DNA of 64,000 nt from Antitrichia curtipendula (taxonomy: Eukaryota > Streptophyta > Bryopsida > Hypnales > Leucodontaceae): the NCBI GenBank assembly GCA_951230915.1, contig OX579639.1, positions 15,252,001 to 15,316,000 of the forward strand. Reading direction: 5' to 3'. The position numbers and the translations under genes are program-made. Of the stretch, positions 19,861 to 57,173 are shown in pieces. The notes under the pieces were generated by a model. That model did not search any database, was not told the origin of the DNA, and was given only the letters and a program-made list of their open reading frames with translations. Each line of letters starts with the position of its first letter. Position 1 is the stretch's first letter.

Positions 19861-20250
19861 AATGTTGGCAAGTTAATTGAGATCTTTTGATGAGATTTTT
19901 TGCGTACAAGAAGTCAATCCAGTGATCTACCTGTGACTCAGCACATAAGCTGAAATTGTTCTTCCACTGACACATGGCTCATTTGAGAACCACTACACTT
20001 GGTTTTAAAGCATAAGGTTGCTCTTGAGAAAATCAGTACATTTGCTTTGAAGTATGGAGTTTGGATGAACTTTGAGGTTGAGAGGATGCAAAGATGCAAG
20101 TACTTGCTTGGAGTGTATGTTGCTTGTAGACATAGCCTAAAGAATTTGTGAAGAAAAAATCGTGTTTGTCAAAGATATTGTGTATGTGTTGTTAGAAGTT
20201 CTTTGATCAAACTTTGTGAAGTTGTAAGTATTGTTTGATAACTTTGCACC

Positions 20251-21270
20251 ATGACAGGAAGTTATGTGCCAAATGATGTACAAAATATGATAGTTGGTAT
20301 GAGAAAAGTTGGCTTGTCATTGAGTGAAATTGGAGACATTGTAGGGAGACCAAAATCAACAATTTCGAGGGTCTTGAAGAGATTTAGTGTATTTGGCTCT
20401 GTGACGCCGGCAAGTAAATCCGGTAGGCCACAAAAGTTGAGTGATCGAGAGAAAAGAAGGCTCAAAAGAGATCTTAGTACTAATTGTCGTGCTCCTCTAG
20501 CAGAATTGTGCAACAATGTGACACCTTCCATGTGCATGTCAATTTTATGTAAAGAGATTCATGAGCTTGGTGTTAACAATTGCATTGTTGTTAAGAAATT
20601 GTTTTTGAGTGACATGCATAAGGCTAACAAGTTGGCCTTTGCAAAAGAGCACTTGCATTGGACGATTGACAATTGGAACAATGTGATTTGGACTGATGAG
20701 TCATCTTTTGAAGTTGAAAAACAATCTTGCCAAATTCAAGTCTGGTGAGAAGTTTATGAATGCTACAATTGGGATTGCATAGCACCTACATTCAAATATG
20801 GGAGGATTTCAATTATGGTATGGGGTGCTCTGACTGGATCTCCTAAGTCTTATTTGGTGTTAATCCCTCCTAATAGATGCACTGCTACAGACTTTGTAGA
20901 GATAAAATATGAGGGAGCATTGGAGCATTATTATTGGTACCATGACTACTATGAGCACCTCATTTTGATGGAAGATGGTGCACCGATACATCGTAGTAAT
21001 GTACAAAAAGATTGGAGGGAGCAACTTGGATTGAGAAAGCTTGAAGGGCCACCAAATTTTCCTGGCCTCAATTCTATAGAGAACCTATGGAAGCAAATTA
21101 AATATCAAATGCAACAGAGAAGTAGACCACAAAACAAAGACAAAATGTGGACATCAGTCAATTTGGCTTGGGAGGATATACCTCAAGAAAGTATCCAGAA
21201 GTTGATTTCTACAATGCCAAACCAAATGGAAGCTGTGATAGCAGCTAAAGGTGGTAGCACTCGATGGTAG
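20251..21270 (+). pseudogene. Tc1-type (DD34E) transposase, one in-frame TGA
   Basis: A frame of 340 codons, the usual length of a Tc1 transposase, is interrupted only by a TGA at 20746-20748. The N-terminus holds a helix-turn-helix (VGLSLSEIGDIVGRPKSTIS) followed by a GRP-type linker (KSGRPQKLS). Catalytic residues are D149 in IWTDESS, D242 in LMEDGAPIHR and E277 in PGLNSIENLW; exactly 34 residues separate the last two, so it is DD34E. The stop sits after QVW, where Tc1 proteins usually have Arg, which suits a CGA-to-TGA transition. Plant mariner-like elements are normally DD39D, so a DD34E copy is unusual. I found no convincing terminal inverted repeats. Confidence 0.85.
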
Positions 21271-21794: not shown

Positions 21795-22482
21795 GGGTAT
21801 TGTATAGTCAAGTACTGAAAGTTTACAAACTCCGTTTTGGAGCCATTCAAATTTTTTTTACAATGTGCATTATAACTGATATATTTTTTTGTAAGCATAA
21901 TTATTGTTGCATCCTTAAGCAATCATGATCAACCATATCCAAATTTTAGTTTCAAAAAAACAAAACTCCATTTTCAGTGAATTGTTTCATTAAAAATTCG
22001 TGATTTTACATTATTATTGATTGAAAATCATTGGTGATGAGTTTTTAGATTTTAATTGCATAGATTTGTAAGAAACATCTATATGCACATTTTTCCTTCA
22101 ACAAGCATCTCCCCAAAAGCTTCAACATTCCATCTAAAGAGATTTTAATGTTGGAGTGATCCTATCCAAGTTTTGTAAAATATCTATTCCTTTATTGTAA
22201 TTAGATTTTCTATTTGCACTTCACATAGTAACTAATTTTGTACATTTAAGCATGATGGTACAATTACTTTGCCAAAATCAAGTTAAAATATAGAGATATC
22301 CATTTCTTCAAAGTTTGGTCATACGACATTTTTCATTGAACTCTTTATTGGTCATCTTTTTGTTACTCGAGGGGGTGTTTTTTAATATGAAAGATGTGCA
22401 TATGGATGTTCCTTACATATCCATGCAATTGAATTAAAAAAATTCACCACCAAATGTATTCAGTAAAATATCATATAAAATC
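21795..22482. repeat. Palindromic repeat, copy A, left part (interrupted)
   Basis: Starts with GGGTATTGTATAG and runs as one full arm plus part of the second arm of a palindrome (marker strings AGCCATTCAAA, AATTGCATAGATTTG and ATTGTAATTAGATTTTCTAT). At 22482 the repeat stops abruptly at the large hAT element and resumes at 37710. The remainder is 37702-37915, ending TACAATACCC, the inverse of the left end. Without the transposon the copy would be about 890 bp, like copies B and C. Confidence 0.8.
22475..22482. other. 8-bp target-site duplication, left (ATAAAATC)
   Basis: ATAAAATC immediately before the left terminus of the large element, repeated perfectly at 37702-37709. An 8-bp duplication is characteristic of hAT transposition. 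Palindrome copy C carries TATAAAATCA at the equivalent place without an insertion, supporting this as the original target. Confidence 0.85.
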
Positions 22483-22495
22483 CATGGTTGTCATA
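22483..22495 (+). repeat. Left terminal inverted repeat of the hAT element
   Basis: CATGGTTGTCATA pairs with the right terminus CAGGGGTGTCATA (reverse complement of 37689-37701). The two differ at positions 3 and 6 only. Confidence 0.8.
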
Positions 22496-22500
22496 CTGTA

Positions 22501-22560
22501 CGGACGTCCGGTTCGCCCGTCCGTCCGTCCGGGACGTCCGTTAGAGGTCTCACCTGCCCG
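22501..22560 (+). repeat. Left subterminal GTCCG-rich repeat
   Basis: A block built on CGGACGTCCG and CGTCCGTCCG that ends ACCTGCCCG. A related block at 37639-37687, in the same orientation, shares CCGGTTYGCCCGTC, CCGGGACGTCCG and a final TCGCCCG/TGCCCG. The palindromic CGGACGTCCG core means the block can be read on either strand. Position next to the termini suggests transposase-binding or structural function. Confidence 0.65.
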
Positions 22561-22638
22561 ATACAGTCAACACAAAGTTGACTTTATGAAACCAAAAAAG
22601 TAGGCCACGTGGACGCCACGTGGATTTAGGAACATGCA

Positions 22639-22830
22639 GGGCGGGGACTCCAGATAGTGGGGGCGGGGACTCCAGATAGTGGGGGCGGGGACTCCAGTGA
22701 GTGGGGGCGGGGACTCCAGTGAGTGGGGGTCGGGGACTCCAGTGAGAGGGGGCGGGGACTCCAGAGAGTGGGGCGGGGACTCCAAAGAGTGGGGCGGGGA
22801 CTCCTGCGTGGGGGTGGGGACTCCAACGAC
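22639..22830 (-). repeat. GC-rich minisatellite 1 (reads GGGCGGGGACTCC on +)
   Basis: About nine copies of a ~21-22-bp unit with the core GGGCGGGGACTCC on the plus strand, i.e. GGAGTCCCCGCCC on the minus strand. The unit tails vary (AGATAGT, AGTGAGT, AGAGAGT). It lies between the left end of the hAT element and the TATA box of the kinase-like gene. Long ORFs through it are artefacts of the repeat. Orientation is opposite to the other arrays. Confidence 0.9.
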
Positions 22831-22901
22831 TGGGGCGGGAACGTGAGGAGGACGGGGCGTGGACGGCACGTGTCGGAGCGGGTACTTGAGGAGCGAGGGA
22901 A

Positions 22902-22911
22902 CTATATAAAG
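22902..22911 (+). promoter_or_regulatory. TATA box of the kinase-like gene, with leader intron
   Basis: CTATATAAAG follows array 1 and is itself followed by GAGTCCCCGCCC and CTCATTTC. A leader intron is likely at 22985-23067 (donor TAT|GTGAGT, acceptor TTGCAG|AGG), ending 27 bases before the ATG at 23095. The same TATA-plus-CCCCGCC[C]-plus-CATTT arrangement precedes the RING-like gene. Confidence 0.6.
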
Positions 22912-23094
22912 CGAGTCCCCGCCCTCATTTCTTTGCCAAGTCCGCGCCCTACGCCTCACACACTAGTTTGTCCCCACGGCCTATGTGAGTGAGTTTGGTG
23001 GGTGGTGGGCTTGGCCCTCATATGTGACCCGGTTTTTTTCAAATTTTTGGGGCTTTTGTGCTTGCAGAGGCCCATTGAACAATTTCTTTTCGTT

Positions 23095-24675
23095 ATGGCG
23101 GGGGAAGGGAGTGCATCGGCGGAGAAACGTCCTATGTTTGTAGATTTAGATGATGTCGGTGAGATGGTAATTCCATCCACGGACAACTTGATGGCCTCAG
23201 GTTCATCGAACCCTTCTTCATCAAGCCAAAAGAAACGCAAGAAAGCACTCAATCCCCATATGCCTCCACATGAATTCATAGTTGAAGGGAGAGCAATAGT
23301 TGTGGTGTTCTACACTCGTCGCAGTACGACTATGTTGACCAGGGAGTATGTGGCGCTCAACGAAGAAGGGTACCACAAACTCACGAGGGACCTACGAACG
23401 GAGCTGGAGTCAAAGTTTGAAGCATCTGAGAAATTCAACAATTTCTCCGATTATTGGTTGCACCAAGACTGGCTGGATAAACAGGTGGTTGCCTTCACAA
23501 CCAATATAGTGTCAAATTGGTGTTACCACATGGGGAAGAAAGAAGATGGTAGCGATTGGGACACACAAAATAAAGAGGTGGTTGCAAAGTTGAAAATCAT
23601 TCAAAACTTTGCTCAACAATTTTCTTCATCACGTAAGAAAAAGCAAGCACCTTGGAAAGCGACAATTGAAGACACCATAATAGCTCATTGTGTTAGTGGA
23701 ACATTCAAGTGGCTTGAAAGTTCAGTAAAAGTCATCCCCATGCCATAACAGAGTGCCGTTGGTTCATATGGGACCGTGAGGAAGGTGATGCTTACAAAAC
23801 TTCAGAGCATTCCTAGTTGGATATTTTTTGCTGGGAAGAGCTTGAAAACCACGAATGAAAAGGAGAAGCGCCAAGGAATCATCAATGAGGCGGGCGGGTG
23901 TCCAGTGAGACATCCTGGCATCATTCAAATTGCGTACCTCTACCCTAAAACGATGGAAGGCTACACGTTATGGTGGAATGGAGGCTCTCTAATTTCTTTC
24001 TTATCCAAATACAATTCGAAAGTAAGCGAAACATTGGATGTCGATGAGATTAAGCATGAACAAGGTACAGGGTTGACAAAAGAGGAGTTTACATGGGTTG
24101 CAACTTACCGACGGAACCGAGTGAACTTGGCACTCTCTTTGCTTGTCATTGTGGGGAAATGCCACGATGCGCAGTACATGCACAACGACATCACTCCATC
24201 CAATATTTTGCTCCATTTTGATGATTATAAAGAGCACACGGTGTATATAGGGATATGTGATTGGGGACTTTCTAGACGAGATGTAGAGAAGGAGCCGTCA
24301 AGGTATGGCTTTCCCAACAAGGACATCCTAGTGAAGGAGAAGAGAATGCGAAGGTTTGCAGCCCCTGAATTGTTTTATATATACGGAGAGCAAGGTTCGG
24401 CAAATTCAATTGAGGCCATGCAAAAAATGTATTTGTATTCCATGGCAGCTGATGCATATGTGGCCGGATGGATAGCAGCACAAATTTGGAAGGAAGAGTG
24501 GGACTCCAAATACTTTACAACGAAGAATCCAGAGCAGTATCAGAACCTCAGGATCAAATTGGAAAGCCTTGTAAAAGAGGATGTGAGTGAAAGGGCGTCA
24601 GTGCCAGATGTTCTCGACGCATTGAAGAAGGCCCCCCACTGTTGGACTATGCCAGAATGTTGTTATCGTATATAG
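23095..24675 (+). pseudogene. Protein-kinase-like cargo gene, one in-frame TAA
   Basis: A frame of 527 codons from ATG 23095 (MAGEGSASAEKRP), broken only by TAA at 23746-23748, which could come from CAA. Residues 1-217 are a Ser-rich start and a domain I do not recognise. Residues ~221-520 are kinase-like: glycine loop GSYGTVRKV, Lys248 in AGKSLK, Glu265 in a candidate C-helix, catalytic loop HNDITPSNIL (H363, D365, N370), CDWGLSR replacing DFG (D389) and AAPEL (E425). The catalytic Asp residues are kept, so the fold may have been active before the stop. The stop lies just before the glycine loop, so the two halves could still act apart. The start 23002 (GTG) was rejected because it lies inside the leader intron. 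Kinase class unknown. Confidence 0.65.
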
Positions 24676-26714
24676 TATTTAGTTTTTTTACTTTTTGTAG
24701 CTTAGCATATAGTTCAGGCATAGAAGGTAAATCACCCTCATAGAGGACCATGTGTATGTACTTCGCAATTGCCAAACACCTCAAATATATATGAAGTCGG
24801 ATGCATTGTACATTCAAAATCTCATGTGAATATATTAACCTGCTATGTCATTGTTCTTTCTCATTGCATGTTTATGAGTTCTATGAATTGATGATAAAAC
24901 TTTTATAAAAATAGTGAATGCAATAGTTTGGTATAAAAATACATACACTTTATCTTTTCACTATGTCTATGTTTTACAGTTTTAGAAGTTAATGAAGCCC
25001 CCCCAAAATAAAATAAATGATCCAACAAAAAAAAGAATAACATTGAAGTACATTGGGATAGTTTTAATCATGAACACAAAAAAAGGTTCAAAAAAATTAT
25101 AAATTATAAAACGAAAAAAAGAAAAGGAAAGGGAATGATGGAACCCAAAAATAAGATTAATGGCTTTGAGTTGAGGTGGAAGAACTTTAGTAAATTAGAA
25201 AAAAATAAAGTAGGGAAAGGAAAGATTGAACGAATAAAGCTAAACTATGAATTCGAATAAAATAGTCTTCTCACTTAATGAACGAAAACAAAATAGAAAA
25301 TGGAATGTTTGAACAAAAAAAAAAAAATAACTATGAGTTGGGATGGGAGAGTTTTAGGAATGAAGCGAACAAAAAAAGATAATCATCCAAGCCAAAAGGA
25401 ATGGCATAGAGTTGGCATGGGAACTCCTTTGTTCATTAATGAAAAAAAAAATAGGAAAGGAAATCATGGAACAAATCCGAAATGGCTTGGGGTTGGTATG
25501 GAATAATTTTGTGAGAGACATAGACCCACAAAAAATAGTGTGTCAAAGTGATTTCAACTAACACCCCAAAAAATTTACCATTTAGTTCGGATAGATTTGC
25601 GTTACCACAAAAAGTAAATGGAATTTCCTTTAGATGAAAGAGCTTGGCTAATAAAAGCAAAAATGAAATTAATAGGAATGATCATTCAAAAATAAATGGC
25701 CTCGAGTTGGGATGGAACAATTTTGCTAATAGCGGGAAAAAAAAATCATTCCACCTTACACAAGTGGCATTGAATTCAAATAATTTTTTTTGGTAATGAT
25801 GCCCATAAAATAGGGAAGAGAATGAAAACACCAGAAAAATTATGGCAATCACTTGAAATGGAAGTGTGCTTTAAAAATCAATGTCTAAAAGGGGAGATGG
25901 AGTGACCAAAGCTTTAGAAAAGCATACCAATTTATTTTAGGATTTTTAGCGGGGGGAATTATTTTTACGAACTTAAATAATCTAACATTAAAAGTAATAT
26001 GAATGGTGGAGTGCTTTCTTATATGGAAATGATTTGGGTGTCACTATAAAATAATGTAACATCCAAAAAATCTATGGAATAGTGGAGTGATTTGGACATG
26101 GAAGTGGTTTGGGGGTTACAAACTTATAATGAAGCAATTTAACACCCAAAAAAAATATGGAATGGTGGATTGATTAGGATATGGAAATTATTGGGGTGTT
26201 AGAGTGATATGATCTAACATTAAATCTCAATATGGACTGCTAGAGTCACTTAGAACATGGAGTAATGTAGAAGGCTCAGAAATCACTCATCTAAGGGCTG
26301 GTTTGCATTTCTACAGTATTTCTTTACATGGGAATATTTTTAAGCTCATTCTTGAAACCAAGAAAAATTGATGAGGAATGTAGCCCAATCGGGTTCATAT
26401 TTTTTTAAACATTATTGAATTAATTATAAATTTTCAAAGGAGATGTGTCCTAGGTCCCTATTTATATTCTTACGTCCTTCATATTGCAATTCTAAAGAAA
26501 AATGGGGATAGCAAAGACAATGATTGGCTCTTGTGATAAAGAATGTTTTTTTCCTTCCTTCCTTTTTGTCTTTTGAGGTCAATTTGAAAACTGCATCATG
26601 TCCATTCTACAACCACTTATAGGGGCAGTTCTTAATGCCAAAACTCTTTTCGAGCCTTCTACCTTAGGAAATGGAAATATGTCTAAGCACATTAACTTCG
26701 TATATTTAAATCAT
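24676..26714. other. AT-rich spacer with degenerate tandem repeat
   Basis: No gene. From about 25050 to 25870 loose copies of a repeat are visible, each with parts of TGGCATTGAGTTGGGATGG, AATTTTG[C]TAATGAAG, CCCAAAAAA and TAGGAAAGGAAATGAT. A second, different degenerate repeat with GGAATGGTGGA[G/T]TGAT and TAACACCCAAAAAA lies at about 25980-26280. The first repeat recurs in the other internal spacer (29690-31410). The 3' end of the kinase-like gene must lie in the first few hundred bases; I see no distinctive polyadenylation signal. Confidence 0.6.
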
Positions 26715-26968
26715 GTCCGCGCCCACTCTCTGGAGTCCCCGCCCCACTGTCTGGAGTCCCCGCCCCCACTCTCTGGAGTCCCCGCCCCCACTGTCTGGAG
26801 TCCCCGCCCCCACTGTCTGGACTCCCCGCCCCACTGTCTAGAGTCCCCGCCCCACTGTCTGGAGTCCCCGCCCCCACTCGGAGGAGTCCCCGCCCCCACT
26901 CGGAGGAGTCCCCGCCCCCACTCGGAGGAGTCCCCGCCCCAACTCGATGGAGTCCCCGCCCTGGCGTC
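26715..26968 (+). repeat. GC-rich minisatellite 2 (GGAGTCCCCGCCC)
   Basis: About eleven copies of a 21-22-bp unit (core GGAGTCCCCGCCC followed by CCACT[C/G]TCT or CCACTCGGA). This is the same unit length and sequence as array 1 but on the opposite strand. It ends just before the TATA box of the RING-like gene. ORFs on both strands across it are artefacts. Confidence 0.9.
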
Positions 26969-26980
26969 CCCCAGCTGCAA

Positions 26981-26990
26981 CTATATAAGG
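26981..26990 (+). promoter_or_regulatory. TATA box of the RING-like gene
   Basis: CTATATAAGG, followed by CCGTCCCCGCCTCATTTG, closely parallel to the context of the first gene's TATA box. A GAGCTGGTT|GTGAGC string at about 27048-27062 resembles leader sequence before the other two genes (GAGCTCCTTGTGAGT at 32635, TATGTGAGT at 22982), but I found no clear matching acceptor. Confidence 0.55.
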
Positions 26991-27117
26991 CCGTCCCCGC
27001 CTCATTTGTCCCCGCCCTGCATACTCTCAGCCTTCCATCTCTTCATTGAGCTGGTTGTGAGCGTTGTGCGGGGTCTACTTGATTGCCACGTGGAGGATTT
27101 CGCTTTTTTCTACAAAA

Positions 27118-29415
27118 ATGGATACACCACCAAGAATGACCAAGGAAGAACGAGATAGGACCCGACCACGAGCCGGAAACAAACATCGTAAGCGACTACA
27201 TGTTCTACGAAACCCTGACAAGCTTGCATTCAGGGGATGGGAGGGCGTGCTTGAACCATGGACATATGATGACTGCGCCAATTACATTGAGTGGTGCCAC
27301 ATAGACAAGTTGTTCCCGGAAGAGCGACACAACTATCATAGACGCTTCCACAAGGCAAATTTAAAATACTGCCTGGACGAAGAGTTTACAAACCGATGCA
27401 TTGAGGTGTACCAAGTGTTGTATGCTCTCTCAAACGTCATACGCAATGAAGTGCAACTTTTCCTTGCACAAGGGGTCTATGCGGAGGTGAAGTTGAACAA
27501 GAGAGTGGATTGGTCAACTTTGAAGCAAATGGGAGAAAATGTCAATATTCCTACTCCAGCAAATGGATTCATTCCAAGGGGGGTAAAAAGATACCCGGAA
27601 GGTGGTCTAGGGAAAACAAATACGCAGGTTCAAGCACCATGAAGATATGACACTGAAGACTCATCTACGGACGACGACTCAGATGGATCTCGTGTACCAG
27701 TTGTAGTCAGCCATAGAACTCAACTACTACGAGCTAAAAAGAGGAGGGCTTCGCGTCAAACTGCTGAGGTTTTACACGAAAATGTTGTAGAGGAACAGGT
27801 GCCACCTATTGACGAACCAGTGGTAGGAATTGTGGATGTTACAGCTGCTACAAACCGAATCCAAGGTTTGTTGATTGAAGTGAATGAGAAGAATGAGGAA
27901 TTGCATTCTTTGTATAATGATGTTAACAAAATGAAAGAAGACATGCAAGAGAAGGACAATATTATCAATCAACAACAACGTGAGATGGAGGTACTTCGGC
28001 ACGCTCTTGAGGCAGCAACATTGGCCAATCGTGGTCAAGATCCACGAGGGGAAGCGCAAGGGCCTTCAAATAATTCTCAAATTCCATTGGAACCTACAGA
28101 AGTTGGTGCAACAATGGATACTCAGGATGATTCTTTGTCCTTTGGAGAATTACCCGCAAATGGAGGTACAGCAGGGCCAGTGGACCAAAGCATCCAACTG
28201 ACGGACGCGCTTGCAATGAATTTGACATTGAAAAATCAATTGCATGCATTGATGGAGCAGTATTACCAATGGAAGCTGGCATGTGTCTTCAGTGTTGACA
28301 GGACTAGGCAAATGGTGGAGGAATTCAAAAAAATTGACCACAATTACGGCGCACACAATCAAGAGAGGGTTTTTGGTTTGACATCGTGGGCCCTGGTGGA
28401 TGATCATTTCAACATGGATGAAATGGCAACCATTGACATTGCTGGTGGACAAACAACCATCGACTGGTCCAAACATCATTGGGATTTCAAGAATGAAGTT
28501 GGCTCTACCGTGGACCATGAAGGCAATCCATTACTATTGTGGCCAAACCCTTCAACCTTCGTACACGATGGAACTACATGTCCCATTTGCCTTAATCCAT
28601 TTGGCCCGGAAGGTGGAATGCACTTAGGCACGTGTGAACATTTGTACCACCCATTCTGCCTAATTAGCTTGATGATTGTCCGCCGACGTTGTTCACTATA
28701 CAAGGCTCCTTTCCATAAGCGCTTGTATGAGTTGTTTGGATTAGTTCCCTACATGCCACCGCATTGGGAATTCAATGCTGAAAATGCCCCTGATCATTCT
28801 CAGAAGTGGGGAACAGACTTGGTGTGGAGTTGAAAATTGAACATCCATTCGTTGGGCAAACAACAACTTTGTACCGAATGGGGTTGGGAAAAAGATCCGG
28901 CTCAAATTGTGGAGGTGTGCCACCACTTGGTTCCATTGAAGGACAACTTTAGCCAAGGATGACGGAATTTCTTCTTCCAATGCTTCAATGGGCATTGGAA
29001 TGAGGCACAAGAATACTTCCAATTTGGACCTCATCCTCTTGGATGGTTGTGGGGCGTTGATGGAGTTCGCATTATTGACGACCAGGGGATGCGGAGGGGG
29101 GAAGACATTGACATGCCAGACCCTGCTGAACTTGCACAACTATCGGAGTCAGAGTGGCGAGAAACCTTTCGAAATGATGGAATGGACTTCTTGTTGGAAC
29201 AACATAGCCCGGGAACTCTCCAATGTCTTCAAAGTCTCAAGCAATCACAAATATTGAAGGCTCTTTTAGAGGAAGACGGATCAGCGAGGAGAACTCGATC
29301 CGCAGTTCGTAGACTTCGTTTGGGAACAGATGAAGACCTTCCAATTCGCGCCGGGACACATGACAATGAGGCTGGACCAAGTGGCAGTGCAAGTAGTCCA
29401 ATGAACATGGACTAA
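27118..29415 (+). pseudogene. Coiled-coil/RING-H2-like cargo gene, three TGAs
   Basis: One frame of 766 codons from ATG 27118 (MDTPPRMTKEERDRTRP) to TAA 29413-29415, interrupted by TGA at 27640, 28831 and 28960. The first 174 codons are basic with a domain I do not recognise. Residues ~241-305 form a coiled coil (EKNEELHSLYNDVNKMKEDM). Residues 488-528 are RING-H2-like: C488, C491, C506, H508, H511, C514, C525 with standard spacing, but the eighth ligand is Tyr528 (CSLYKAPF where C..C is expected). The C-terminal ~150 residues have no recognised domain. The frame stays open across every stop and composition does not change, so these are one decayed gene. Whether the last TGA-bounded part belonged to the same protein is likely but not proven. 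A RING protein would suggest a ubiquitin-ligase role. Confidence 0.6.
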
Positions 29416-31857
29416 GTATAGTTTTGAATATAGTTTTGAGTGTTTTAGCTAGTGAGCTTAGGTTTTCTTAGAAGACTTATTTTCCTAGCACTATAATATT
29501 ATATAGGCTTATATACTTTCCTACTTTGTATTACACTATGCATATGAAATATATTTGATTTTGTTTTGAATGATTTTGCCCAAAGTGACTTCATTTATTT
29601 TTTGCACGTACTCATTTGAAATTTGAATGGACTTGTGGACTTCATACATATTAAAATTATTTATACCATGAAATGAAATGTCATTGAATTGGAGTACAAT
29701 TCATTCCCAATTTCCACTCAATGAATAGAAGTAGGGAAGGTTGGACGGACCACGAAGGCACGAAGTGGCCCGAACTTGAAATTAGGGGAAAAAACGCTTT
29801 TCAAATGTCATTAATGCCTTGATGGAAATATATATATGCAAAGGAATGATGGAACTCCCCCCCAAAAGGGATTGAAATAGGTAAAAATTCACTTGCAAAA
29901 TAGGCAAAGGAATGATAGAGAAAAGCAAAAAATAGGGAAGTAATTACCTACTTAAAAATGAATGGCATTTAGTTGGGATAGAATAACGTGACAAATGAAG
30001 CCCAAAAAAATTAGAATAGGTTTAGAGAATACAAAATTTAAATGGCCTTTGATTGAGAATTTTAGATGGAGCAATTTTGCTAATGAAGCACAAAAAAAGT
30101 AGGAAGGTAAACTGAATGCCAAAAATTGGCATTGAGTTGGAGAAAAATTAGGAAGAGAATAATAATGCCATTTAGTTTTTATATAACTTGGGATGTAACA
30201 ATTTTGCTAATCAATCTAAAAAAAATTGGAAAAGAAATGAATCCAAAAAATTAGGAAAGGGAAAGAATCCCCCCCAAAAAGGAAAGGGAATGAATCCCAA
30301 GAAACATTTGATAAGGGAATGAATCCCAAGAAACATTTGATAAGGGAATGAATCCCAAAGAAATAGGAAAGGGAATGATATACAAAAAATAAAGGGCATT
30401 GGCCATTGGGATGGCATGGGATAATGTTGCAAATGAAGTTCAAATAAAATTAGGAAGTAAATGATATACCCAAAAAAAAGGCATCTATTTGGGATACAAT
30501 AATCTTGCAAATCACTAACAAAAAATAAGAAGGGCTTAGGTAATACAAAAATTAAATTATTTAAATGGCCTTCGGGCTCATGATGGGATGGAGCCATTTT
30601 GGCATTTTGCTAATGAATTTTACAAAGATTAGGAAGGGAAAGAAATGTAAGTGCATTTTAAATGTTGCTAATAAAAACAAACAAATGTGAAAGAAATATG
30701 AAACAAATATTGTTTCACATTACCTCTTATGTCATATGAAAAATGGGAAGTGAATGGATAGATTTCAATTTCGTACCATAAAGAAAAAAATTTAGGGAAT
30801 CCCTTAGGATGGAATAATTGTGCTAATAAATAAAACAAATAGGAAAGGAAATAAGCAAAAAAAAAATGCTTACCGTTGGATTAAACAATTTTAGGAATTA
30901 ATGAAGAAAAAAAATAGGAAAGGAAGTGAGTTGGATGAATAAATATTGGCATGGAGTTCACATAAAAGAGTTCTATGAATTAATGAAGAAAAAAATGGTG
31001 TCTTTGAGTTGGGGACTTGGGGTGGGAGAACTTCAGGAAATAAGCAAAAACAAAATAGAGATGGAAATGATTCAACAAAAAAAGATGAATTGAAAATTGG
31101 GATGGAAGATTGTTAGGAACAAAATAGAAAAAGGAATGATTCAACTAAACCAAAAAAATTAAATATAATTTGGGATGGGAGAGTCTTACGAATGAAGCAT
31201 CTACAGAAAAAGAAGACAAAATGATCCAACCCAAAAAGAATGCCATACAATTGACAAGTTGGGATGGGAGACCTGTGCTAATTCCTGGAAAAAAATAGGA
31301 AAGGGAATGATGCCCCCCAAAAAAGGACAGTGACTTAGAATGGAAGACTTTTAGGAATGAAGCCCGAAAAATTAGGAAAGGAAATGATGGAATTAAAAAT
31401 TGCAGTTGCATATTGAAGGCCTAGAATTTTAAATAACTCCCCTACTATTTCTTTCATTTCAAATACAATGCAGTTTTATCCTTTTATCTAGTACACTACA
31501 TTTCAAAAATATTGATTAAACATTTACTAAATATTTCCTCAAAGTGTCCTAAACATTTCCTAAATCAAAGAATTTACATTGTTTTTTACAACCTAAATGA
31601 TATGTTTGTTCAAAGTAGTTTGAAGTGTTAGAAGAAGTAAAGAAAAACATTTCTCACCACAACAAAGGAGACATCCTCTTCCATGGATTTTCTTCCAAAT
31701 CTTAGGCCATGGACCTCTTTATTCGGCATCTTGCTTTCATTGTCTTGTCAGAATCCAAAATAAGTTGTTGAGGCTAAATTAATGCTTCCCACTCTCCAAG
31801 GAAAAGGGCGGTTCAAGGATGTCGCATTTCAAAGTCTTGCTTCCTGTGCTGGACGAG
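29416..31857. other. AT-rich spacer with degenerate tandem repeat (second copy)
   Basis: No gene. From about 29690 to 31410 many loose copies of the same unit as in the 25-kb spacer are seen: TTGAGTTGGGATGG, TTTTGCTAATGAAGC, CCAAAAAAA, TAGGAAAGGGAATGAT. Near 30280-30370 a short cleaner stretch repeats AAGGGAATGAATCCCAAGAA. Minus-strand ORFs here (Phe/Ser-rich) are artefacts. Confidence 0.6.
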
Positions 31858-32048
31858 TTAGTCCCCGCCCTGGAGTCCCCGCCCTGCCTTCGAGTCCCCG
31901 CCCTGGAGTCCCCGCCCTGCCTTTGAGTCCCCGCCCTGGAGTCCCCGCCCTGACTTCGAGTCCCCGCCCTGGAGTCCTCGCCCTGCCTTCGAGTCCCCGC
32001 CCTGGAGTCCCCGCCCTGACTTAGAGTCCGCGCCCTGACTTTGAGTCC
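31858..32048 (+). repeat. GC-rich minisatellite 3a (33-bp unit)
   Basis: About five copies of a 33-bp composite unit made of GAGTCCCCGCCCTG plus a second GAGTCCCCGCCCTG with a CCTTC or ACTTC tail. Same core as the other arrays. The spacer between 3a and 3b (32049-32325) holds isolated GTCCGCGCCC cores and otherwise nothing recognisable. Confidence 0.9.
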
Positions 32049-32325
32049 ATTCCATGGAGTCTGAGATTGAGCTGCGCTTTCTCAAGTTCCTCCATTTGTG
32101 TGAATTGTCCGCCCCGGAGTCCGCGCCCTAGCACAATCCATTGAGCAAAAACATTGGGGAGTGAAAGCCATTTTCTTTGCCCACAAATTTGGGGGCGTGA
32201 CGACATTTAATGTTCCCTTTTTTCCATGAAAATGAGGGATACAATCTTCCCAGACCATTAAGGATGGCGAAGGTCAACGTACTTTTCGATGCATCCCCGT
32301 GAGCACACCTGCATTTTTGTACTGG

Positions 32326-32515
32326 AGTCGCGCCTTGGAGTCCGCGCGTTCGAGTCCCCGCCCTGGAGTCCCCGCCCTGTCTTCGAGTCCCCGCCCTGGA
32401 GTCTCCGCCCTGCCTTCGAGTCCCCATCCTGGAGTCCGCGCCCTGCCTTCAAGTCCCCGCCCTGCCTTCGAGTCCCCGCCCTAGAGTCCCCGCCCTGACT
32501 TCAAGTCCGCGCCCT
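32326..32515 (+). repeat. GC-rich minisatellite 3b
   Basis: About eleven cores of the GAGTCC[C/G]CGCCCTG type, arranged as in array 3a but less regular. It lies just upstream of the transposase TATA box. Confidence 0.85.
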
Positions 32516-32557
32516 ATACTTTGGTGACGAAGACGTCCGCGCCCCCTAAACCGCTAA

Positions 32558-32567
32558 GTATATAAAG
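32558..32567 (+). promoter_or_regulatory. TATA box of the hAT transposase gene
   Basis: GTATATAAAG-type box downstream of array 3b and of a GTCCGCGCCCCC core. The leader contains GAGCTCCTTGTGAGTCTACTT, similar to the leader of the RING-like gene. ATG is at 32827, about 260 bases downstream; part of this leader may be an intron. Confidence 0.55.
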
Positions 32568-32826
32568 GAAAGGAAGACCCAGCATTCCCCACACTTGTCA
32601 CCTGGCCTCTATTTCTTGGACTTCAATTCATTTTGAGCTCCTTGTGAGTCTACTTGGGTGGCAGATGGCCCTAGTTTGCTGCTGAGGTGATGTCAAAATC
32701 AGTTCAAGCAGTGGAGTAGCGCTAACTGCTGTTACTGATACTGTGTTTGGTATATCTTGGATCCTTTTAACTTCAATATAAAGGAGGAGGAAGACGGAAG
32801 AAAATATCCTTGGATCGTTGAACGCA

Positions 32827-35800
32827 ATGGCAAGTCAAAGGAAGCAGACCAAAGAATGGGAGCCGTGGCTTCAGTTTACGGAGAATGGGGTTAAAGTGAC
32901 TTGTGTTTTCTGTGCTGGGATCTTCAGTTACAAACGTGAGCGTGCTTTTGCACACTTTGGATATGGCTCCAAATCGGAGAGGTCAATTTGTCGAAGTATG
33001 CCTCGTCCAGTGCGACATAGATTTGCCAATTGTGCAGGATTTGTCCCGCTACAAATCGATGTCGGGGACATGTATGAAGGAGAACCAATTCAAAGTGCGC
33101 CATCTAGAGCAACTCCTCTTGCAAGTTCAAGTGAAGCCACTGAAAATGAGGTGACGGGTGGGATCAATGGTGGAAGAGCGGAAGAAGGGGCAAACGTTTC
33201 AGAAGGAATTGATATTCTACAAACGTCAAATAGTCTTGCTGGATCCAATTCTACGAGATCTGGATCATTACGTCAACAACGCATGGCGGACGCATTCAAC
33301 ATTGCAAAGAGGAAGGAGTTGGATGAGAAGTGGGCAAGTTTTTTCTATGAAGCGAATGTGCCATTTAATGTGGCAAGGCATCCAGCCTTCATTGAAGCGG
33401 TGAGGGCAACCTCAGTGGCGAAGTTTGAATACAGTCCACCTTCTTACCATCAATTTAGGACTAATTTGATTGAACCGAGGAGGTTGCAAATTGAGAAGCA
33501 GATTCAAGAGAAGGTTGGATTTGTTGTCAAGTACTACGGGGGGTCGATATGCACCGATGGTTGGGATGATGTCAATCGGAGACCCCTCATGAATGTGATG
33601 ATGTCATGCCCCACAGGTGATGTATTTTTGGGGTCAATTGATACTACCTCGCAAAAGAAAACCATGCGCTACATATCGGACCAAATGAACGTGTACATTG
33701 AGAAGGTGGGTCCCAAATATGTAACACAAGTGTGCACAGATAATGCAGCAAACATGCTTGGCGCATTGAAGGACATCACTAACACATACCCGCATATTTT
33801 TGCGCAAGGCTGCATGGCACATGCACTAGATCTCATGTTGGAAGACTGGGCCAAAGTCCAAGAATTTTCCGATTTAATTGCCAGGGCAAAAAGATTGTGC
33901 CAATACATTCGAAACCATCATGCGACCATGTCGGTTTTCCGCGAGTTGAGTCCGAATCTGCAACTCGTAGTGCCTAGCGAAACCCGCTTCGCTTGTAATT
34001 TCCTCACGTTGCAGCGATTGATGAAACTCAGAGGAGTCTTGGAGCGGTTGAATAACCATCCACGTGTTCTAAATTTCTTTGATACCCTAAGGAATGAACA
34101 AAATGGACCACAAGCAGCTACCGCTTCACGTAATGTCAAAAGAACCATTGAAGATGTGGCTTTCTGGCAACGGTGTGTGAATTACGTGTACATGACTGAA
34201 GACGTATTGAAGGCTTTGCGTGTGTTTGATGGACGAGAACCAGCCATGGGTCGGGCGTGGCTCGTAATGTACAATTTGCGAGGGCATGTGTTTTATTTAA
34301 GAGAACCACCTTTCAGCTTACGTGATGACATAGCAGTCATTTTGGAAGAATCTTTCAGTGCAAGATGGCACATGGTTTTTGAAGATACACACTACGCAGC
34401 GGCCCTTTTGAATCCATACCTCTTGGATAACATGGCGCTCAGGGAAGATCAAACTGCCCTACGTGCATTGTACAGAGTCATCCGCAACATGATGGGGAAC
34501 CTGGGTGTCAATTTTGATGATGTGATGGCGGAATTAACAGAATTCGAGGAGGGTATTGGACCCTACAGTCCAGCTGAGACACCCAACATCCGTGCGACAC
34601 AAATGCTTCCCCACCAATGGTGGCACAGGGTTGGAGATCGGGCTCTTTCGAAAATTGCCGTGCGTGTTTTATCCCTCACGTGTTCCGCCAGCTCCTGTGA
34701 AAGGAATTGGAGTATGTATTCCTTTGTTCACAATAAGATCCGAAATCGATTGGCCCCTGAAAAGGCAGAGTCCCTGGTATATATTTATACCAATAGCCGT
34801 GTACTTCGCCAACGACCAGGAGCCGATCCAGTTCGTTGGTATGATGCGAATATGTACTCAGAGGATTCTGATCCAGATGCCCTTGGACCGATCCCGGTGA
34901 ATGAACGCAATCGGGAATTTGACGCACTGCAATCAGAGGAAGAAGAAGAGGTTGATGGGGAAGCCAACCGAGGAGCTCAAGAGTATCCGGCAAACCCAGA
35001 TCTTTGGAGGCAAGGAGCCGATCACCTCGAAGAAGCGCGGAACTACTATGGAGATGCTAATGATGGAGAGGAGGAACTCCTTCGTGGTCGTAGGGGACCA
35101 CCACCACCAAATCCTCGTCGTAGTCTTTCACCTCCACTTCCTCAAAATGAAGGGGTTGTAGAAGTCCCAGCTTTGTTGTCTTCTTTGGAGACCAATAATC
35201 CAAATGACGATAACGTTGATGATGGTATTTCCCACAACAACAACGACGATGATGACAACCTCCCTCCAGGAAATGGCGGCGGAAATGGCGGTGGAAATGG
35301 CGGTGGAAATGGAAATGGTGGTGGAAATGGAAATGGTGGTGGAAATGGAAATGGTGGTGGAAATGGAAATGGTGGTGGACATGAAAATGGTGGTGGACAT
35401 GAAAATGGCGAGAGAAACAGGGGGAGGAATGCGAATCCAAATCATGGAGGATCTTCTCACAATCGAGATGGCAATACACGCCCTACGGGAGTGGAACCAG
35501 CAACTCGTAACATTAGAGCTCTAGAAAGACAGCATGATAGAAACGTTAGAAATGCAAGAGTACCACGCCCTTTTGCAAGAAATCAACCGGCTGGTAACAT
35601 GAGAAGGCCTTTTGATCCAGAGCATGTGGACCATGATGATGTTTTTGTTTTTGTAGAACCACCCGAAGACATTGCCCCTGTACCGGCTCCAGTTGCGGGC
35701 CATCCTGCTATTTCTGAACATGGTACACAAGTGCCACATTCCCTAGATCCATCTTCAGAAACAATTTCCAATGCCATCCAAAGACCTTCTCAAGAAAGAT

Positions 35801-36423
35801 TAGGCTCAGTGGGAAATGTTGATTTGACTCTGCAAAGAGTTTCACGTGGTAGACCACCTGTGGCCCCTCGGCCCTCCGTTCATCATGAAGTAGGTCAATA
35901 TCAACAAGCCCGTGGACGGACGAGAGGCCATGGTAGAGCTGCAGGCCGTGGAGGGAGTACAGGCCGAGGACGAACAGAAGATCTGCATATTGGAGAAGCA
36001 TCATCGCCAAGGCAAGCTAATCGTTCACCCCTCGGAATTGGAGCAAGAGATCCAAATAGGGTGATAGAACCGTTCCTAAGTACATACGTACCAGGACCTA
36101 GCCGGTCAACTCCGGCATTTGTTGTTCGAACAATTCCAGGTGGGCCTACTATAAATTCTGATGTAGAAGACCCCAACGCACAACGACACAAGAGGTTGAA
36201 GCGCAAACGTACTCATGGCCAAACAACTATAGAGCTTCGAAATGAAAACTCGGAAGTTGAGGAACATTGGACCACCGACAATGGTGAAGCAGAAGATGAA
36301 TATGACAGCAATGAAGATGCCAATGACGAGGCACCAGAGGATGATGATGTTGTTGTTCGAGATGCTAATGCAGCGAATCCAAGTGCCCAAGAAGTTCGTA
36401 GGTCGAGTCGTTTGAATAATTGA
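32827..36423 (+). CDS. hAT transposase with long C-terminal extension
   Basis: An uninterrupted ORF of 1198 codons beginning MASQRKQTKEWEPW; the upstream TTG in frame was not taken as the start. Residues ~12-70 are a BED-like zinc finger (C26, C29 in KVTCVFC, then His/Cys-containing text). Residues ~190-335 match DUF659/hAT catalytic core: D244 in CTDGWDD, D305 in VCTDNAANM, and the CMAHALDLM box. Residues ~590-665 are the hAT C-terminal dimerisation region with E625 in SSCERNWS. D244, D305 and E625 are the likely catalytic triad, all present. After ~665 comes a ~530-residue extension not usual for hAT: Glu-rich and Pro-rich parts, a Gly/Asn repeat (~816-865), Arg/Gly-rich patches and an acidic tail (~1139-1178). 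The protein would act in the nucleus, binding the element ends. Probably functional by sequence. Confidence 0.9.
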   Translation: MASQRKQTKEWEPWLQFTENGVKVTCVFCAGIFSYKRERAFAHFGYGSKSERSICRSMPRPVRHRFANCAGFVPLQIDVGDMYEGEPIQSAPSRATPLASSSEATENEVTGGINGGRAEEGANVSEGIDILQTSNSLAGSNSTRSGSLRQQRMADAFNIAKRKELDEKWASFFYEANVPFNVARHPAFIEAVRATSVAKFEYSPPSYHQFRTNLIEPRRLQIEKQIQEKVGFVVKYYGGSICTDGWDDVNRRPLMNVMMSCPTGDVFLGSIDTTSQKKTMRYISDQMNVYIEKVGPKYVTQVCTDNAANMLGALKDITNTYPHIFAQGCMAHALDLMLEDWAKVQEFSDLIARAKRLCQYIRNHHATMSVFRELSPNLQLVVPSETRFACNFLTLQRLMKLRGVLERLNNHPRVLNFFDTLRNEQNGPQAATASRNVKRTIEDVAFWQRCVNYVYMTEDVLKALRVFDGREPAMGRAWLVMYNLRGHVFYLREPPFSLRDDIAVILEESFSARWHMVFEDTHYAAALLNPYLLDNMALREDQTALRALYRVIRNMMGNLGVNFDDVMAELTEFEEGIGPYSPAETPNIRATQMLPHQWWHRVGDRALSKIAVRVLSLTCSASSCERNWSMYSFVHNKIRNRLAPEKAESLVYIYTNSRVLRQRPGADPVRWYDANMYSEDSDPDALGPIPVNERNREFDALQSEEEEEVDGEANRGAQEYPANPDLWRQGADHLEEARNYYGDANDGEEELLRGRRGPPPPNPRRSLSPPLPQNEGVVEVPALLSSLETNNPNDDNVDDGISHNNNDDDDNLPPGNGGGNGGGNGGGNGNGGGNGNGGGNGNGGGNGNGGGHENGGGHENGERNRGRNANPNHGGSSHNRDGNTRPTGVEPATRNIRALERQHDRNVRNARVPRPFARNQPAGNMRRPFDPEHVDHDDVFVFVEPPEDIAPVPAPVAGHPAISEHGTQVPHSLDPSSETISNAIQRPSQERLGSVGNVDLTLQRVSRGRPPVAPRPSVHHEVGQYQQARGRTRGHGRAAGRGGSTGRGRTEDLHIGEASSPRQANRSPLGIGARDPNRVIEPFLSTYVPGPSRSTPAFVVRTIPGGPTINSDVEDPNAQRHKRLKRKRTHGQTTIELRNENSEVEEHWTTDNGEAEDEYDSNEDANDEAPEDDDVVVRDANAANPSAQEVRRSSRLNN

Positions 36424-36837
36424 GGTTATTGAGTTGCATCGATGGTAGATCTCGGATCTTTAAGAGTTGAAGACAATTGTAGCAATTGGAAGAAATATAG
36501 ACGAGAAGCCAAAAAAATGTTTTGGATAACCTATAAGAAACAGAGAAAGTGAGCGTATTTTGGAAGTATAGATTCATTGTATTGATATTGTACTTTGCAA
36601 TGCATGAATTTTATAAACTATTTTGGTTATCACAAACATTGCAGCCTACCTGTATTTTTTTTGTGTATTTTGTATTTGATGGGCCTCCTGGAAACCTTGG
36701 TGGGAAAATCATGTAAAATACATTCCAGTTACTGGTTCTTTTTAATGCAGTGGGGTCTCCTATTTGTTCCGAATTTTTTTTATACATATATATATATATA
36801 TATATATTGTAGAACACATAAATTTAATCCACCATTG
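36424..36837. other. 3' flank of the transposase gene, with (TA)n
   Basis: Probable 3' untranslated region and spacer, containing a TA run at about 36785-36806. Two small ORFs here overlap the TA run and have no recognisable content. Confidence 0.5.
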
Positions 36838-37544
36838 CCCGTCCGCGCCCTCCCACTCACGTTCAGGTCTGCGCCGTACCTGAAGGAGTCCGCGCCCTAA
36901 CGCGCTGAAATCCGCGCCCTGCCTGAAGGAGTCCGCGCCCTGCCTGTCACAGTGAAGTCCCCGCCCTGCTTGAAGGAGTCCACGCCCTGACGCGCTGAAG
37001 TCCGCGCCTTGACTGAAGGAGTCCGCGCCCTCACTGTCACACTGAAGTCCCCGCCCTTCTTGAAGGAGTCCGCGCCCTGACGCGTTGAAGTCCGCGCCCT
37101 GACTGAAGGAGTCCGCGCCCTGACTGTCACAGTGAAGTCCCCGCCCTTCTTGAAGGAGTCCGCGCCCTGACTGTCATACAGAAGTCCCCGCCCTGCTTCG
37201 AGGAGTCCGCGCCCTGCTAGCCGAAGTCCGTGCCCTGCTTGAAGGAGTCCGCGCCCTGACGCTCACACTGAAGTCCCCGCCCTAATTCGATGAGTCCGCA
37301 CCCTGAAGCGCTGAAGTCCGCGCTCTGAATGAAGGAGTCCGCGCCCTGACGCTCACACTGATGTCCCCGCCTTGCTTGAAGGAGTCCGCGCCCTCACGCG
37401 CCGAAGTCCGCGCCCTGACTGAAGAAGTCCCCACCCTAACGTCCGCGCCCTGACTGAAGAAGTCTCCGCCCTAACGTCTGCGCCCTGACTGAAGAAGTCC
37501 CCGCCCTAACGTCCGCGCCCTGACTGAAGAAGTCCCCGCCCCTA
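36838..37544 (+). repeat. GC-rich minisatellite 4 with 90-bp higher-order unit
   Basis: About forty cores of the type GAAGTCC[C/G]CGCCC or GGAGTCCGCGCCC. Between 36925 and 37195 the cores form an exact 90-bp higher-order period (GAAGGAGTCCGCGCCC starts at 36925, 37015 and 37105). The last ~130 bases switch to a 35-bp unit containing CTGAAGAAGTCCCCGCCC. It sits inside the right end of the hAT element and on the opposite strand to array 1 at the left end. Confidence 0.9.
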
Positions 37545-37638
37545 GATCTAGCTGTCCAAGCTGACGTGTCATTGAAAAAAATTCCACAACTTTGAGAAAT
37601 TGAGGCCGTCCAGTTGGTCCGGACCGTCCGTCCGTCCG

Positions 37639-37687
37639 GTCCGGTTTGCCCGTCTGTCCGGGACGTCCGATGACCCTAACTCGCCCG
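37639..37687 (+). repeat. Right subterminal GTCCG-rich repeat
   Basis: Counterpart of 22501-22560: CCGGTTTGCCCGTC, CCGGGACGTCCG and a final TCGCCCG, in the same orientation as the left copy. It ends just before the right terminal inverted repeat. Confidence 0.65.
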
Positions 37688-37688
37688 T

Positions 37689-37701
37689 TATGACACCCCT
37701 G
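37689..37701 (-). repeat. Right terminal inverted repeat of the hAT element
   Basis: Reads CAGGGGTGTCATA in reverse complement, a standard CAGGG-type hAT terminus, pairing with CATGGTTGTCATA at the left end. Confidence 0.8.
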
Positions 37702-37915
37702 ATAAAATCACAAAAATTGATTTTGAAAATTCACTAAAAATGGAATTTTATTTTTTTTGAAACTGATATTTGATATGCTTGATTGGGATTGGGTAAGAAT
37801 TGAGTGATAATTATGAAAGACAATAAAACTCAATTCTATTCTGTATCATGTACAAATTTTTGAATGGCTCCAAGACGCAATTCGTAAGCTTTCAGTACCC
37901 GACTGTACAATACCC
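37702..37915. repeat. Palindromic repeat copy A, right remainder (with TSD)
   Basis: Starts with the right target duplication ATAAAATC (37702-37709) and continues the interrupted arm of copy A through TTGATATGCTTGATTGGGAT and TTGAATGGCTCCAAGACGC to TACAATACCC. Read with 21795-22482, and counting the target site once, it restores a continuous palindrome. Confidence 0.8.
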
Positions 37916-55351: not shown

Positions 55352-57173
55352 TCACGATATTCCTGTAATTCCACTAAAACTAGAAAGACCAGAAGACCAC
55401 CGCCTGGACACCATGGATGCAGACATCGTCCTTGTCGGAGGGTGCTGCAAACCCAAGCCACCGGGACTCGGCAAATTCAAACCAGGTGGTCTAGAATCTC
55501 CAATGTTCCTGGCAGGTGTCCTCTCAGTCAAATTAGTGGAGGTGGGCGCAGGTTCCAAGGCCTGAGAGAAGAACTGCTTCAAGCCAGGAGGCGCAATAGC
55601 AGCAGGAGAGGAGGTGGTTCTTTCCAGGTTGTTCGCTTTCAGGTACCAGGAATTGAAACTCTGTGCAAGCTCGGGATTCTGGGCAGGAGCCACGAGGTTG
55701 AGGCGATGCACCCATTCAATCAACAGGAAGATACCTTGATTAGCAAAGTTCTGGCTATCCTGAACCTCATCAATCTTCAAGCCCAACCCTTCCATTTTCC
55801 GGTTCACATCCTCGATTTCATGTATACTCCTCCCAACCGTGCCCTTCACTTCTTCCACCTGATCCTTGATCAACCCTGTGATCACAACGCTGTCGTCCAG
55901 TTTGCTACTCACACTATCCAGTCTTTGGTTCATGTGCTTCCTGGTCGATGAAAGAGCCGCAGAAACGTGCTCTAGTTGCTTGCCCACCCCTGCCACCGCA
56001 TTGTTCATGCCTTTCCTGGTGACGTACATGACGTCTCCGATTGAAAAGCCTCGCCACCACATGTACCCGTAGCTGACAGTGCCAACCACAGCGGCTGGCA
56101 AGATGAATGAGGTGATCGACATTCCTGAGCCTGAACCTGCTTGCACGACAGTCACCGACCGTGAAGAAGATGCGAGCTTGTAAAGCTCTTGCGTTAGTCG
56201 CTGGACTTGGAGAGAGAGAGCGGCATCGTTTCCTCCCCCTTCCCTCTTTTGTCCATCTTCTTTCCAATGCTTCGACAACACCTGACAATAGCATAGTCTT
56301 CGTCAATAACAGTGCTCACAATCGATTCAATCGCCAAATAGAAAAACAACAAATTCATAGCGACACTTTATTTCATAAAAATAAGGTAAATTTCTGTACA
56401 CTATACGGAGGTCTGTAACATTAGGAATTATCAAACGTCAATCATGTCTTCACCAAGGGAAGGGAAATCTCTTCCTATATTTTAGGGCTAAGAAAAGGAA
56501 AGGATGTCATTAATCGTAGCAATACTCTTGATTATCTCTGCTACCTACCCCTTGGAAAGTCACAACATAATCCATAAGTTGACTAAGCTATTCAACCCAT
56601 CTCCAACTTCTTCAGAATTTCATGGGATCCACAAGAAAGGTAGAGTCAAACCTCCTCCAGTAATCTTGACTCCAGATTGGACACTTTCTACAAACCAAAA
56701 TATACTTTCACCAAGATTATTCTGCAACCAAGGTTTGACTACCAACGGTAGATATTATGAAACCTGAATTAAGTCTCACTAGGTTTAGAATTCTATCATA
56801 CTGTCCATTAGGAGTACAAAAACCCAGGCACGTCATTGGTGATTTGCTCCTCTCTACTACCCCACCCTTTGCACAATTCACCTCGAAGACCAGATCCTCC
56901 AACGATCGAATCTCCACCTTCCAAAACTACATTACCAGAACACTAAACACTAAAATTTCGGAAAATTCAACGCAACGGGCTATTCCAAAAGCGAATCAAT
57001 CACAAAACGAAAGCCGTAAAATATCACTACAATTACTAGAGGATGAATACCTTGGAGAGATCGCCAGCAAAGTCCATGAGCTTGTTGTTCTTGATCAGTA
57101 CTGATCCCATTAACCCCGCCCCGACCAGCAGCACCACCTTGGTGGCGCCGAGGCTCGCCTGCATCATCGCCAT
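55352..57173 (-). CDS. DUF1664 family protein, two exons
   Basis: Exon 1 is 57051-57173 (41 codons, MAMMQASLGATKVVLL) and exon 2 is 55352-56281, joined in phase 0 with donor CTCCAAG|GTATTC and acceptor GTCAG|GTGTTG, giving 350 residues. The protein has an N-terminal hydrophobic segment (about residues 9-27), a second one followed by YGYMWWRG (about 96-117), the family's most recognisable motif, then a long coiled coil (about 131-220) containing AVAGVGKQLEHVSAAL and VSSKLDD. The last ~100 residues are Pro/Ser-rich and variable. DUF1664 proteins are plant-specific, membrane-associated by prediction and of unknown function. The intron is 769 bp. The start is chosen because it restores the conserved family N-terminus. 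Confidence 0.92.

Follow-up and report, generated by a model that had tools for sequence, protein, structure and literature searches.

In a window of 64,000 nucleotides (contig OX579639.1, positions 15,252,001 to 15,316,000), we find that positions 22483-37701 form one hAT transposon, whose inverted ends are 13 bp long and whose 8-bp target duplication is perfect. It belongs to a family of about 14-21 kb in which a kinase gene, a RING-H2 gene and a transposase gene move together between the inverted ends. All three genes lie on the plus strand, in the order kinase, RING, transposase. We propose, with a probability of roughly 60%, that the family represents a hAT lineage whose regulatory accessory genes share one promoter code and perhaps serve to manage host silencing. 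If this is true, it would be a rare plant DNA transposon that encodes signalling and protein-turnover functions, with array motifs, two enzymes and a transposase that can be tested. Most cut-and-paste transposons have been described as dependent on their host for everything except transposition.

Ten copies share the same ends and gene order

An earlier note on this DNA had described one hAT element with matching ends and a perfect 8-bp duplication, and our reading of the ends and target sites bears this out. The left terminal inverted repeat, CATGGTTGTCATA (22483-22495, plus strand), is identical in 9 out of 10 copies, and the right one lies at 37689-37701, where the minus strand reads CAGGGGTGTCATA; in the window copy, CATGGTTGTCATA and CAGGGGTGTCATA (the right end reversed) are identical in 11 of 13 bases. 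Eight copies match in 12 out of 13 bases, and in one out of ten the left end is damaged. The element is flanked on the left by the 8-bp target-site duplication ATAAAATC (22475-22482) and on the right by an exact match to it, ATAAAATC (37702-37709), neither with a strand assigned. Target-site duplications are perfect in 7 out of 10 copies and agree in 7 of 8 bases in the other three (one of these is a by-eye reading in a register shifted by 5, made because that copy differs in its outer 5 left bases; a script working in fixed register scores that copy at 6/8).

The further copies come from the 400-Mb assembly that holds the window, which was searched with the left end and with the right end, 40 near-full places being scored for each. 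Pairing of left and right ends gave nine further two-ended copies (10 of 40 with the window's own), all of which were fetched. The ten copies lie at ten different sites, and all of them contain kinase, RING and transposase in identical order, the transposase being partly deleted in one. The earlier note had suggested looking in this genome for full-length copies with the same ends and cargo, and had named cargo outside the conserved ends, or ends from different elements, as what would speak against it; the nine copies at other sites were found, and neither outcome was seen in the ten. Because nine further two-ended copies at other sites have the same structure, we consider that it is not due to chance. 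The placement of two cargo genes inside conserved ends thus holds for ten copies, although the genes are not intact in the window, where the kinase has one stop and the RING gene three.

The nine further copies are 13.9 to 21.3 kb long, and five of them measure 17.5-17.7 kb. Seven of these nine have an extra stretch of about 2.3 kb or more upstream of the transposase gene, which is absent from the window copy and from the other two. This extra stretch, which lies between the arrays 5' of the transposase gene, is about 2.3 kb long in six copies and larger in one, apparently through a nested insert. We considered a fourth gene in the extra stretch and rejected it: five of the seven copies examined have no frame of at least 110 amino acids there, one (c2_31.0) has a single 118-amino-acid frame that reads through the array, and the last (c2_20.9) has eight frames of at least 110 amino acids (up to 473), which we took to be those of the nested insert.

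Beyond the two-ended copies, the same genome holds at least 82 places with the kinase, at least 59 with the RING gene and at least 39 with the transposase at 96-100% identity; these counts are lower bounds, because only the best candidates were scored. No stop was found in 41 of the 82 kinase places, 23 of the 59 RING places and 14 of the 39 transposase places (split matches were counted as stop-free only when both pieces were). Among the places listed, two or more of the three genes stand in order in 63 out of 115 coordinate clusters, and all three are present in 15. Full-length frames open from ATG were seen among the nine further copies for the kinase in six cases, for the RING protein in two and for the transposase in two (1224 and 1170 codons). 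In addition, this assembly contains copies that are paired in opposite orientation at distances of tens of kb and have identical scores (for example C1:21574589-/21594897+, C8:23623003-/23653773+, C1:45161073+/45197840- and C2:52539661-/52560576+); these are genomic inverted duplications or assembly fold-backs.

The transposase and the two cargo proteins

The transposase frame (32827-36423, plus strand) is uninterrupted over 1198 amino acids, as the earlier note had stated. It contains DUF659 (PF04937, E-value 7.1e-35) and the hAT dimerisation region (Dimer_Tnp_hAT, PF05699, E-value 1.8e-8), followed by a long low-complexity C-terminal part. Residues D244, D305 and E625, which we take to be the D-D-E catalytic triad, are invariant in eight aligned proteins. 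At the N-terminus, no BED match was obtained at E-values up to 1, and H43 and C55 are invariant in the same number of aligned proteins. Residues 596-654 have a weak sequence match to Hermes (E-value 0.031). The 26 transposase homologues found in public collections include ordinary hAT proteins from the plants Vicia and Zingiber, which are about 30% identical. No relatives of the transposase were found in GTDB genomes, and no relatives by kinase or RING alignment were found in viral contigs. Within the C-terminal part, an 18-bp tandem repeat (35269-35412) codes mostly for Gly and Asn, and gaps in the transposase gene between copies are mostly whole codons (48, 66 and 84 nucleotides).

The kinase gene (23095-24675, plus strand, 526 codons; Pkinase, E-value 1.3e-9) is open in the window apart from one in-frame TAA at codon 218 (23746-23748). 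An intron in place of this stop was rejected, since the donor and acceptor considered, by eye only, break the frame. Public collections gave 38 kinase homologues. In 19 aligned sequences, K248, H363-D365 (HND) and N370 are invariant and D389 (DWG) is nearly so. Homologue P0006 is modelled (predicted local distance difference test, pLDDT, 85.6) as a helical N-terminal domain joined to a kinase fold, the latter matching kinases in the PDB at an E-value of 4.7e-9. Sequence and model together thus predict a eukaryotic protein kinase, with the catalytic Lys, HxD, Asn, DxG and the fold in place. P0005 shares 73% identity with the transposon kinase and is assigned to a Bacilli bacterium bin, probably through contamination; it is the sole protein with an organism name that the kinase and RING homologue searches returned.

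The RING-H2 gene (27118-29415, plus strand, 765 codons) matches zf-RING_2 at an E-value of 3.5e-4, which is below the Pfam cut-off. In the window its frame holds TGA at 27640, 28831 and 28960 (codons 175, 572 and 615) and is otherwise open. At least 29 homologues were found in public collections, where the best 7994 candidates by shared words were scored, and 23 out of the 29 match zf-RING_2 at an E-value of 0.01 or less. Ligands C488, C491, C506, H511, C514 and C525 are invariant and C528 nearly so, and column 508 has His or Cys in 17 out of 18 sequences. At codon 528, the eighth zinc-ligand column, the window and one other copy have Tyr, and eight of the ten copies have Cys. The eight ligands and the fold of a RING-H2 domain are therefore found at the level of the family, with Tyr at 528 in the window copy. 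The family has a common layout of an N-terminal domain, predicted long helices, probably a coiled coil, the RING-H2 domain and a conserved C-terminal part. The model of homologue P0048 is weak overall (pLDDT 64.7), and its RING part comes nearest to RNF165, RNF38 and EL5, with weak E-values of 0.16-0.34. The RING protein is probably a ubiquitin ligase. With one open frame and two that hold stops, the window copy could supply transposase, and it could not supply full-length cargo proteins.

A common promoter design for all three genes

Each gene has tandem arrays of GTCC(C/G)CGCCC (GTCCCCGCCC arrays) on its 5' side, and the right end of the element holds such arrays as well. The left subterminal array, in GGGCGGGGACTCC orientation (22639-22839, minus strand), stands 5' of the kinase gene and is followed by a TATATAA box (22903-22909, plus strand). 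Upstream of the RING gene, a GGAGTCCCCGCCC array (26717-26961, plus strand) precedes a second TATATAA box (26982-26988, plus strand), and two array blocks 5' of the transposase gene (31860-32515, plus strand), here missing the extra stretch of seven of the nine other copies, precede the third (32559-32565, plus strand). Each of the three boxes is present in 10 out of 10 copies, and in all ten the 150 bp that precede each gene's TATATAA contain 1-8 motifs, counting both strands. The right subterminal array (36881-37541, plus strand) is in forward orientation, inverted with respect to the left array, as expected of subterminal binding sites. Across the ten copies, the motif occurs 52-82 times per copy; it occurs 0 times in the window outside the element, and shuffled sequences give 0.02 per element. 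CpG observed/expected is 0.54-0.98 in the arrays and 0.28 in a host stretch. The earlier note had given the cargo genes promoters of their own; each gene does have a TATA box and arrays, but the design is a common one that the transposase gene shares.

Related subfamilies retain gene pairs in other arrangements

With a distant RING query, 57 places were scored in the same genome, 35 of which were assigned to other subfamilies. Subfamily B, called by frame length, accounts for 12 of these 35. Its RING protein is 54% identical to that of the window in the three loci read; GTCC(C/G)CGCCC stands upstream of the RING gene in all three and TATATAA in two. At 6 of the 12 RING places, as judged from the listed kinases, the subfamily B kinase and RING genes lie head to head, 2.3-2.4 kb apart. 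At one further locus, the N-terminal part of a RING gene lies 1.3 kb beyond a kinase that has 30% identity to that of the window, in the same order as in the window; a subfamily C RING gene is close by.

Subfamily E is a second abundant hAT family (e.g. L042-L043, L049), for which 44 transposase and 79 kinase places were scored. The 44 transposases are 58-61% identical to P0087, which in turn is 44% identical to the window transposase. Among the places listed, coordinates put a convergent kinase on the 3' side of 27 of the 44 transposases, with gaps of 1306-2348 bp, and such a kinase was seen in six out of six fetched stretches, three of them from copies that were unlinked in the lists; in one fetched stretch only the C-terminal third of the kinase was seen. 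These kinases are 27-32% identical to the window kinase in the matched parts (33% for the short piece). Subfamily E has an array motif of its own 5' of the transposase, and a stretch starting CAGGGTTGTC is a candidate for its left end; its right end was not found in the 4 kb beyond its kinase.

What the cargo genes may do

In the reading that we favour, the arrays would be bound by one of the element's own proteins, with the transposase and the RING protein as the likeliest candidates; this binding would turn on the genes together, as a regulon, and the protein would also gather the ends. The kinase and the RING E3 would work in trans, their targets being proteins of the host or of the element, with the silencing machinery, cell-cycle state and transposase stability as candidates, and would in this way keep the family expressed or mobile. 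Such a way of working would be like VANDAL anti-silencing, though unrelated to it. It is plausible that, as the earlier note suggested, the element may influence host signalling or protein turnover. It is possible, though we hold it only tentatively, that the family is part of an old plant hAT lineage with a dedicated signalling pair of kinase and RING E3, joined with the transposase in one regulon through an array promoter code that diverges between subfamilies; this would form a self-encoded counter-silencing or host-reprogramming module that evolved independently of VANC and TET/JBP.

Several points weigh against a regulatory accessory set. In the window copy itself, stops interrupt both the kinase and the RING frame, and we infer both the binding of the arrays by an element protein and, from sequence, the function of the cargo. 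All three genes together were shown in the window family only: for subfamily E, the 4 kb read beyond its kinase contained no recognisable RING gene, and 29 of the 35 other-family RING places have no kinase within 25 kb among the matches listed. The promoter design also varies, in that one of the three subfamily B loci is without TATATAA and one subfamily C RING gene is preceded by an array of a different motif, followed by TATATAT. Homologues from other sources are known as sequences without genomic context. Moreover, nearly every biallelic difference among the ten copies is a singleton (110 of 119, 145 of 161 and 198 of 220), and C>T or G>A make up 76-84% of the singleton differences; the copies therefore look silenced and decaying, as expected from a single burst followed by decay of methylated copies. 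Between the ten copies, the ratio of nonsynonymous to synonymous substitution rates (dN/dS) gives no sign of selection on the cargo: median values are 0.45 for the kinase, 0.72 for the RING gene and 0.69 for the transposase, with single pairs up to 1.9. At these values we set dN/dS aside as uninformative on cargo function.

The stops in the window copy and in many others, together with the lack of a within-genome selection signal, would also suit a passenger capture of the Pack type, in which two host genes were caught once and amplified without being of use to the element, and captured host sequence does occur in plant DNA transposons (Ulp1, in the part of PMC13317346 consulted). We consider this quite unlikely. 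The cargo genes share the array and TATA promoter with the transposase in 10 out of 10 copies, and homologues that have kept their catalytic and zinc-ligand residues are far apart in sequence. In other subfamilies, moreover, the kinase stays with the transposase or with the RING gene at low identity and in new orders; because these pairs persist elsewhere, rearranged, we regard the cargo as a set of accessory genes that is old, and not as a passenger picked up recently.

The common promoter design of all three genes and the retention of kinase and transposase in subfamily E are also compatible with cargo directed at the element itself, the kinase phosphorylating the transposase and the RING protein turning it over to set its dose and timing, with host silencing left untouched. 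This appears doubtful, though less so than passenger capture: the 76-84% of singletons that are C>T or G>A are as in methylated copies, and such methylation-type changes make silencing a pressure that the accessory genes might answer. By far the least probable, to the point of being negligible, is an artefact in which neighbouring or nested elements have left ends flanking unrelated genes by chance. The internal arrays can be read as former ends and other transposon pieces lie nearby, but both ends, the gene order and target-site duplications at different sites are common to ten copies, which rules out a composite of neighbouring elements, and the 63 of 115 listed clusters with two or more genes in order point the same way.

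Comparison with known transposons

The element is like other members of the hAT superfamily (Ac, Tam3, Hermes) in its 8-bp target-site duplication, short terminal inverted repeats, DUF659 and dimerisation regions and D-D-E columns. It differs from Ac, Tam3 and Hermes in the 14-21 kb length of its family, its two extra genes, its array promoters and the long low-complexity C-terminus of its transposase; hAT elements usually measure a few kb. Starships are defined by a tyrosine recombinase captain and Maverick/Polinton elements by a DNA polymerase B with an integrase, and a scan of six frames gave no match to any of these.

DNA transposons with accessory enzymes are already known. According to the part of one study that we drew on, fungal hAT7 and other TET-bearing DNA transposons of rust fungi have an accessory TET/JBP gene within complete ends, fungal IS3EU transposons encode a transposase and an alpha-kinase, and SET-bearing HarbingerS elements are a further DNA transposon with an accessory enzyme (PMC12730594). 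As described there, hAT7 resembles the window element as a hAT-type transposon with an accessory enzyme gene, but it has 7-bp target-site duplications, not 8-bp, and a TET/JBP dioxygenase, and it occurs in rust fungi; a Pfam scan of six frames found no TET/JBP match in the window element. IS3EU likewise has a kinase gene as a standing partner of a DNA transposon, but it belongs to another superfamily, its alpha-kinase is not of the Pkinase fold, and the passage on it mentions no RING gene. The earlier note had regarded cargo-bearing hATs of this size as, to its knowledge, a class not described in plants. hATs with accessory genes have been published from rust fungi (PMC12730594, as far as consulted), and we therefore place the novelty in the combination of genes, in the promoter code that they share and in the host, which is likely a plant. 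In the literature searched, where most subscription papers were outside reach, we found no kinase/RING hAT and none that joins Pkinase and RING genes by a common array promoter; this is no proof of absence.

VANDAL elements belong to the MULE superfamily. In the excerpts used of PMC5735166, the VANDAL protein VANC is an element protein that binds motifs in tandem arrays, and the arrays vary between related elements. On that account, the likeness to the window element lies in a multi-gene plant DNA transposon with short non-coding array motifs that differ between subfamilies. VANDAL encodes VANC with DUF1985/DUF287, for which the Pfam scan of six frames gave no match in the window element, and the likeness is one of ways of working, with no homology claimed. 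Kaonashi MULEs, which carry ULP1 (PMC13317346, in the part seen), offer a further parallel in having a protein-modification enzyme domain as conserved DNA-transposon cargo.

Neighbouring features in the window

Approximately 1.2 kb before the hAT element, a Tc1/mariner-type transposase frame (20242-21270, plus strand; HTH_Tnp_Tc3_2, DDE_3) contains one internal stop. On the other side, the minus strand has a CRM1_C (exportin) match at 41275-41760, which probably marks a host exportin gene that extends along this strand from about 41 kb onward. Further along the minus strand lies an intron-free DUF1664 protein frame of 316 open codons (55355-56302); DUF1664 is linked with plants, which makes a land-plant host likely. 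Beyond it, on the same strand, is the C-terminal piece of another hAT transposase (62206-62829, Dimer_Tnp_hAT).

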